Source of the DNA: an uncultured bacterium
Lineage (GTDB): Bacteria > Cyanobacteriota > Vampirovibrionia > Gastranaerophilales > Gastranaerophilaceae
Length of the DNA: 41,804 bases
Assembly: GCA_902796925.1 (NCBI GenBank)
Contig: CADBQW010000097.1
Location: 1 to 41,804 of the forward strand
Reading direction: 5' to 3'
Each line of letters begins with the position of its first letter. Positions within the stretch are counted from its first letter, which is position 1. This document shows positions 6,550-8,422 of this stretch, piece after piece. Position numbers and translations under genes: made by a program. The notes under the pieces are model-generated. The model ran no database searches. It was not told where the DNA came from and worked only from the letters and a program-made list of their open reading frames with translations.

Positions 6550-7209
6550 ATGGTAAACAAAGTTAACAATAACAATGGGCACGTTAAAGGAGCTTACGAG
6601 CAAAGGCAAAAACAAAATAGACCTGTTAGCAAAACGGAACAAGCAGAAGTAGATGCTATTTTTAAAAAGTTAGACAAAGCTGATGGTAATGAAGATGGAT
6701 TTATTTCTGCTAATATTTGGAACGAATACGCCGGTAAACATGGCGGTAAACACATTAAATCACGAATCGGTGTTAAAAATGCAAAGGCATCTATTGAAAT
6801 TTACAGAGAAAGAGCTCTTGATAGGTATGTTGGTGATAAAGATTCAAGTGTAAATAAAGTTACAGCAAACAACAAAAAGACTGCACAAAAAGGTGCGGAA
6901 GGACATTATTATCATACAGGAGATCAAGGCCTTATTAACGATTTGTTAGATATTCATAAAGAGCTACGTGGACAAATTGATCCAAAGAGAACGATAACAG
7001 TTACCAATCCAAAGGAAAACCAAACAAACACATACTATGATAAGAATGGTAAATTCTTATTTGCAAAAACTGAGAATTTTAGAACCAAAGAGGTTAAAAT
7101 AATTTTAGATAAAGAAGGCACTGTGGGTATGATTGGCAAATATAACCCAAAAACTAAGAAGATATATTGCCATACGTATTTTATGAAGGATACATATGTT
7201 GAACGATAA
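6550..7209 (+). CDS. Hypothetical protein with an EF-hand-like loop
   Basis: The 219-residue protein is soluble, Lys- and Asn-rich, with no signal peptide. Residues 42-60 (LDKADGNEDGFISANIWNE) resemble an EF-hand loop, with DGNEDGFI giving D-x-N-x-D-G-x-I. The usual bidentate Glu at position 12 is Ile, and a Glu occurs three residues later, so calcium binding is uncertain. The second half includes NTYYDKNGKFLFAKTE, reminiscent of short toxin-like or RHS-type beta repeats. The start is supported by AAGGAGA seven bases upstream. It is a single-gene unit, since a strong terminator follows at 7229-7258. I do not recognise a family with a known role. Confidence 0.75.
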   Translation: MVNKVNNNNGHVKGAYEQRQKQNRPVSKTEQAEVDAIFKKLDKADGNEDGFISANIWNEYAGKHGGKHIKSRIGVKNAKASIEIYRERALDRYVGDKDSSVNKVTANNKKTAQKGAEGHYYHTGDQGLINDLLDIHKELRGQIDPKRTITVTNPKENQTNTYYDKNGKFLFAKTENFRTKEVKIILDKEGTVGMIGKYNPKTKKIYCHTYFMKDTYVER

Positions 7210-7342: not shown

Positions 7343-8422
7343 TTAATAATTCATTTCCCAATTGTCTTGGATTAATGCTCCTAAACATGCTAGTTCCGGT
7401 GGGTTTTTTTCATCAGATTTACCGGAGGCTGCAACACCCCCTCCTTTGCAGTAATCATATCTTCTTGATTGTTTATTAGCTATTTCATTTTTAGCATTTC
7501 TAATTTCGTCTTGTTTGTTAACTGCATCTTCTAATTCTGCAGCTCGTTCACTGTATAGATCGTTAAAAAAATCTTCAAACTTACTGTTTAGGAGGTTTTC
7601 CATACTGCCAGAGGCCTCAGTACTGTTATTTTGGCTATACTTTTCTATGTATTCCTTTATCCATTCCTCTCTTTTGTCTTTTGATTTGCTCCAAGAGAGT
7701 GTAGTTTCAAGTAAACTTTCTTGTCCTTTTTCAAATAATTGATATTCTTCTTCGCTAAAATGTGCATGGGCTGTTTCATGACAGGCTAAAAATAGTTCTT
7801 CACCATAAGCTTGTCTTTCTATTTCATCGCTGTCGGTATAAGTTTCTCCCGTAATCCTTTTGAATTCAATTTCAGAGGCAAGTAGGGTATTCCTATCAGA
7901 CGGAGAAACAATATCTATAGATCCGTCTGAGAATATGATTCCGGCAAACAAATCTCTGCCCACGATATTAGGTTCTTTTGTTGCGTTAGTATCGATATAA
8001 ATTTTACAAATTCCCGGTGTGCATGTGGAAGGTACACAAACACTGGCTCCGCCTGATAAAGTATAGTATTTTCCACAACTGTCAGAAGAAAAATCGGAGT
8101 CAGCTCCGCTTATTGTTCTATAGCCGGATGCGAAGGTTGAAGCATATGTGGAACCTTTTTTGGCCAATTTGAGATAATTTGTAAAAAATAAATCAGGATT
8201 TGAGGTGAAATTTGTAAAATTTAAATTATTAACATTGTTATCGGCAAGATATCCGGCAAAGCCGTTTTCAATATCAATAATGGTTTTTCTTACCGACGTA
8301 ACATAAGTTTTTTTCTGGTGATTGTTTATAAGTTGAGGTAAGCTTAATGAAGCGACAACTCCAATAACCCCCAATGCTATTAGAATTTCAGAAAGAGTAA
8401 ATCCTGATTTTTTGTTATTCAT
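7343..8422 (-). CDS. Type IV pilin-like protein with an inserted HETAH-containing region
   Basis: The 359-residue protein begins with a class III prepilin signal: KKSG|FTLSE at residues 4-12, with Glu at mature position 5, followed by a hydrophobic helix to about residue 30. Prepilin peptidase should cut after Gly7. The body has features of this lineage's secreted pilins: a Cys-rich pair region (116-139), an IYIDTNATKEPNIVGRDLF segment and IIFSDGSID (about 141-170). The normal C-terminal closing (YDYCKGGGV ... ACLGALIQDNWEMNY) comes only at 322-359. Between them is an extra segment of about 140 highly charged residues (about 184-322) carrying HETAH (215-219), a HExxH-like metalloprotease motif. 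Either the insertion is a zincin-like domain or the motif is chance. It stands alone, without other pilus genes. Confidence 0.85.
   Translation of the reverse strand: MNNKKSGFTLSEILIALGVIGVVASLSLPQLINNHQKKTYVTSVRKTIIDIENGFAGYLADNNVNNLNFTNFTSNPDLFFTNYLKLAKKGSTYASTFASGYRTISGADSDFSSDSCGKYYTLSGGASVCVPSTCTPGICKIYIDTNATKEPNIVGRDLFAGIIFSDGSIDIVSPSDRNTLLASEIEFKRITGETYTDSDEIERQAYGEELFLACHETAHAHFSEEEYQLFEKGQESLLETTLSWSKSKDKREEWIKEYIEKYSQNNSTEASGSMENLLNSKFEDFFNDLYSERAAELEDAVNKQDEIRNAKNEIANKQSRRYDYCKGGGVAASGKSDEKNPPELACLGALIQDNWEMNY

Follow-up and report, generated by a model that had tools for sequence, protein, structure and literature searches.

The open reading frame (ORF) at 7343-8422 of the window, the whole 41,804-nucleotide stretch analysed here, is a type IV prepilin gene in which ~110-150 extra residues precede the closing disulfide and C-terminal segment. 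Both ends of a pilin, the prepilin N-terminus GFTLSE and the C-terminal closing CLGALIQDNWEMNY, are present in the same 359-residue frame. The features are as follows:

7343-8422, minus strand: modular prepilin gene; a 359-aa ORF with a PF07963 match, whose residues 1-189 are matched by pilins of its own genome and genus
7892-8422, minus strand: pilin module, residues 1-177; GFTLSE, alpha-1 helix (10-61), beta-strands and Cys 116, 129, 134 and 139
7451-7891, minus strand: inserted module, residues 178-324 (edges uncertain); missing from all 38 aligned relatives, helical in the model
7766-7780, minus strand: HETAH, residues 215-219; at the C-terminal end of modelled helix 199-221 and, with C214 and H221, forming CHETAHAH
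7526-7552, minus strand: SERAAELED, residues 291-299; the candidate third zinc ligand of the earlier note, inside modelled helix 271-326
7346-7450, minus strand: closing C-terminal segment of the pilin, residues 325-359; C325, C346 and ..NWEMNY, with a modelled helix at 342-352

The assignment of the pilin part draws on profile matches to PF07963 at residues 3-26 (E 5.7e-06; 26.1 bits against a cut-off of 21.2; Pfam) and to TIGR02532 (22.4 bits against 16.3; NCBIfam), and on the near invariance of C325 and C346 of the closing segment across aligned relatives. The window's own genome, a 1.57-Mb metagenome-assembled genome (MAG) that is 95% complete, yielded 13 protein matches including the pilin itself, the 12 others covering the pilin part only, and the named matches to that part were mostly Gastranaerophilales or Melainabacteria records. 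The same genome contains type IV filament genes, specifically a prepilin peptidase (PF01478, one match), a secretin (PF00263, one match) and T2SSE ATPases (PF00437, six matches, five above the cut-off), which are consistent with processing and assembly of the pilin. The gene is flanked on one side by a 219-aa ORF and on the other by a response regulator/kinase-like ORF, both on the opposite strand (identities read from the sequence). The 219-aa ORF (6550-7209, plus strand) is convergent with the pilin gene, and a weakly scoring EF-hand-like stretch (E 0.16) was all that the profile search gave for it.

Position and extent of the insert

The insert follows the last pilin strand and is itself followed by the closing disulfide and C-terminal segment. 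In all 38 aligned relatives, the chain runs, with some variation, from ..DGSID.. through a short loop to a Cys pair and the closing stretch ..CFGKILNDNWEM.Y. The proposal of the earlier note, that a separate and charged module splits an otherwise normal pilin, is thereby borne out: the stretch it had pointed to (7457-7873) corresponds to residues 184-322, and residues 178-324 hold 34 D/E and 18 K/R in 147 residues.

Alignment with other pilins, the route that the earlier note had suggested for defining the edges, places them in two ways. MAFFT pairs the first D-loop Cys of the relatives with C325, giving an insert of ~175-324, while local alignments to two pilins (L141 and L142) pair the same Cys with C214, giving ~215-325. 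If C214 is the canonical D-loop Cys, then the foreign part starts at HETAH itself, inside the disulfide-bounded loop. Of 146 pilin-like ORFs (closed frames with an early motif; the open-ended L026 and L027 were left out and scanned separately), 143 have at most 274 residues, and the longer three have 302, 458 and, for the window's pilin, 360 (a count that takes in the residue preceding the start). The GC content is 0.34 in the insert, 0.36 in the pilin part and 0.34 in the window.

Relatives and predicted fold of the insert

The insert appears to be an orphan across all samples searched, since no relative was found in genomes, GTDB or viral contigs, or phage records. Specifically, the window's own genome gave no relative by protein and only chance matches of 16-36 bases by DNA, the three genomes of the genus gave none, and overlapping sets of genomes from the family (383), the order (383) and the class (382) gave no convincing one. 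A peptide pattern search for the insert found 66 fitting stretches in GTDB contigs, and the search of viral contigs gave eight stretches; none of these was confirmed, and phage records contained no relative. The best non-self match among the family genomes (E 6.8e-4) occurred in one genome among hundreds, begins after HETAH and looks like a resemblance between charged helices. Further, in a full-length search of the 383 family genomes (E<=1e-25, five candidates scored per genome), the non-self matches listed all stop at or before residue 195.

Several candidate homologues were considered and rejected. When the weak family matches were realigned, the alignments inspected, about a dozen among 29 sequences, all proved to be charged-helix resemblances; most of these start past HETAH, and the one crossing it (L038) has no HExxH there. 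Three pilins (L126, L141 and L142) are reached by blastp as far as residues 212-218, but they are of ordinary length, with their D-loop Cys matched near or to C214. Pfam, NCBIfam, PHROGs and the PDB gave no convincing relative of the insert; the matches that surfaced (NCBIfam Bud32, E 0.12; PHROG 21341, E 0.16; PDB Uly1040, E 0.25; Pfam, E 0.11-1) were judged to be chance.

The predicted fold of the insert is all-helical. AlphaFold2, run on 39 alignment rows that are empty over the insert, modelled the pilin part with pLDDT mostly above 90 (helix 10-61 and strands 86-163) and the insert with pLDDT 46-82, as helices only (174-191, 199-221, 224-244, 248-265 and 271-326, the last of 56 residues). 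The model has no strand from residue 164 to the C-terminus, where its confidence is low, and the insert folded alone was unreliable (pLDDT 49). Helices 224-244 and 248-265 carry hydrophobic residues at heptad a/d positions. In VIA-align, the full model matched pilins at Z<=5.6, with PilA5 best (Z 5.6 over 106 residues at rmsd 4.3, which is middling) and no peptidase among the matches listed. Foldseek returned no match of the full model to the PDB at E<=0.001, and the insert-alone model produced three meaningless matches in the fold search, none of them a metallopeptidase. Such blank fold searches do not count as a sign of a new fold.

Function of the insert and the meaning of HETAH

The likely explanation, in our view, is a modular and probably minor type IV pilin whose added helical module, unrelated to pilins, would serve for display or for interactions at the tip. 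Prepilin peptidase would cut the pilin part, which would then be assembled into a type IV filament. The acidic, all-helical module of ~110-150 residues, which interrupts the pilin head in its C-terminal loop region, would project from the surface of the filament or, by analogy only, from its tip. Given the analogy with modular pilins, its most likely role would be binding, either as adhesion or as contact with partner minor pilins.

A fair rival is a non-catalytic metal site, because residues 178-324 contain three His and one Cys in total, and these four lie together in a stretch of eight residues (CHETAHAH). Here C214, H215, H219 and H221 would bind zinc or another metal, thereby stabilising the helical module or constituting its function. 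Clustering of this kind arose in 0.024% of shuffles, although the test is post hoc, and the helix at ~205-222 has just three charged residues (E208, E209 and E216) amid a highly charged insert. However, C214 may rather serve as the canonical D-loop Cys, engaged in a disulfide, and the searches gave no relative of the insert in which the four residues could recur. Overall, we regard such a site as unlikely, and a minimal helical zincin as less likely still.

It is also rather unlikely that the insert is non-functional or a spacer, with HExxH arising by chance, whether it entered the variable D-loop region recently in this lineage alone and was tolerated there or is an assembly artefact. The orphan status of the insert in all searches, the low AlphaFold2 confidence (above all for the insert alone) and its occurrence on a single MAG contig would fit such an origin, but the frame stays open over some 147 codons and leads into an intact closing segment, the GC content resembles that of the rest of the gene, and helix propensity persists throughout, together with the heptad hydrophobics at 224-244 and 248-265.

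The zincin interpretation of HETAH, put forward in the earlier note, is unsupported. The motif does lie at residues 215-219 of the translation, and a zincin-type metalloprotease on the pilin would have H215 and H219 binding zinc, E216 as the base and, as third ligand, a Glu or Asp of helix 271-326 (SERAAELED, or FEDFF at ~280-284). The resemblance to zincins consists of HExxH in a predicted helix, here one of low charge that is followed by a long Glu/Asp-rich helix. Known zincins, however, pair the active-site helix with a beta-sheet, whereas the modelled insert is helical with no strand (at moderate to low confidence). Further, the PS00142 zinc-protease signature needs a large hydrophobic residue at the position held here by T217, and the context of HETAH departs from it there. 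The polar residue that the earlier note had placed after the second His is in fact Ala (A220), the polar misfits being T217 and H221. The coiled-coil alternative that it had set against its own proposal stands in so far as the model contains helices only, with SERAAELED in the middle of helix 271-326, where the candidate third ligands lie.

No peptidase profile of Pfam, NCBIfam or PHROGs matched, the names of the three PDB sequence matches include no peptidase, and no orthologue of the insert was found. Shuffling the insert produces HExxH by chance in 0.75% of cases, and shuffling the whole protein in 0.3%, frequencies that would favour a zincin but concern a motif picked after the whole window had been read. 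HExxH occurs in two of the 146 pilin-like ORFs, the window's pilin and an ordinary pilin (L113), and in two of the 28 ORFs of the window that reach 150 aa, the second being presumably an iron-hydrogenase-like protein (a name read from its sequence). The L113 gene (2707-3387), of ordinary length, encodes an independent HExxH, HEAGH, in that same region, within the C-terminal disulfide loop. The motif was found in none of 20 stretches from relatives with long pilin frames (three frames run off the stretch, one of these three having only 94 aa), and the hydrophobic moment of the HETAH helix (0.10) is uninformative. HETAH most likely arose by chance or has a structural role, rather than forming the active site of a protease, and a zincin on this pilin is very improbable. 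Were HETAH to bind zinc catalytically, the pilus would display a protease with a new fold, which the evidence does not favour. Equally far-fetched, in our estimation, is a new and purely helical metallopeptidase or metal-binding domain, built from HETAH and a Glu or Asp of helix 271-326, that was born in one gut lineage and inserted in a pilin head. A surface protease on a pilin would not be the unheard-of kind of protein that the earlier note took it for, as PMC8179133 lists S74 and M26 among the peptidase modules predicted on pilins; these precedents lend the zincin reading some plausibility.

Modular pilins in the family and in known systems

The preferred reading, a pilin bearing a helical module for display, can be set beside other pilins of the family, in which modular forms are frequent (S74, InlB-repeat and Lcl_C). 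Among 10 long family pilins scanned, S74 was found in five and Lcl_C in one (above the cut-off), and InlB-like repeats (PF18998) scored above the cut-off in two of three further pilins (L017 and L027) and just under it in L026. Their positions are:

L017, 1492-2859; L027, 1345-3480; L026, 2-1858: InlB-like B-repeat pilins (PF18998)
L181, 51-1826; L183, 424-2553; L185, 267-1394; L186, 261-1784; L198, 51-2072: prepilin motif, long region and terminal Peptidase_S74 (endosialidase chaperone), with a coiled-coil-like tail

L017 additionally contains a linker of Ser/Thr/Pro repeats and, on its C-terminal side, a part with several Cys. L180, at the start of contig C70 of genome G000, resembles the S74 pilins, with no S74 part within its stretch. 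Three similar-looking long pilins (L182, L183 and L184) lie at ~13.5, 47.7 and 60.5 kb of contig C40 in genome G001, and are possibly a recombining family. The number of PF07963 matches varied among the 39 genomes searched, with large repertoires of 112 in G001, 112 in G005, 111 in G012 and 104 in G016 (family genomes of 1.7-2.2 Mb); the window's genome has 16, and several others have 6-17.

The S74 domain is an autocatalytic chaperone domain located on the C-terminal side of long fibre-like regions. The five S74 pilins of the family are like the window's pilin in joining a pilin to an added module, theirs with a peptidase family name, but they differ from it in that their modules lack HExxH and have no sequence relation to the insert.

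Beyond the family, the closest parallels are the modular type IV pilins, such as PilB of Streptococcus sanguinis, in which a pilin module bears an unrelated and bulky display module, a design that is widespread and diverse by the account in PMC8179133. That source counts 264 modular-pilin architectures, many of whose modules have no database signature. Unlike PilB, the window's protein has its module before the closing segment instead of after the pilin, and the module matched no known domain. Among the examples given in PMC8179133, modules inside the pilin are the beta-solenoid of ComZ and the alpha-domain of GspK. The latter, from type II secretion, resembles the window's pilin in having an all-helical domain within the pilin head, whereas the module of the window's pilin enters at the C-terminal loop region; further, no T2SSK profile of Pfam or NCBIfam matched the pilin at E up to 10, and no GspI or GspJ partner adjoins its gene. 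The modular-pilin design is therefore already in print, predicted peptidase modules included (PMC8179133), and the window's pilin is an unusual case of it. If its module is real, then the catalogue of modular pilins would gain a helical module of orphan status that lies within the pilin rather than being appended to it.
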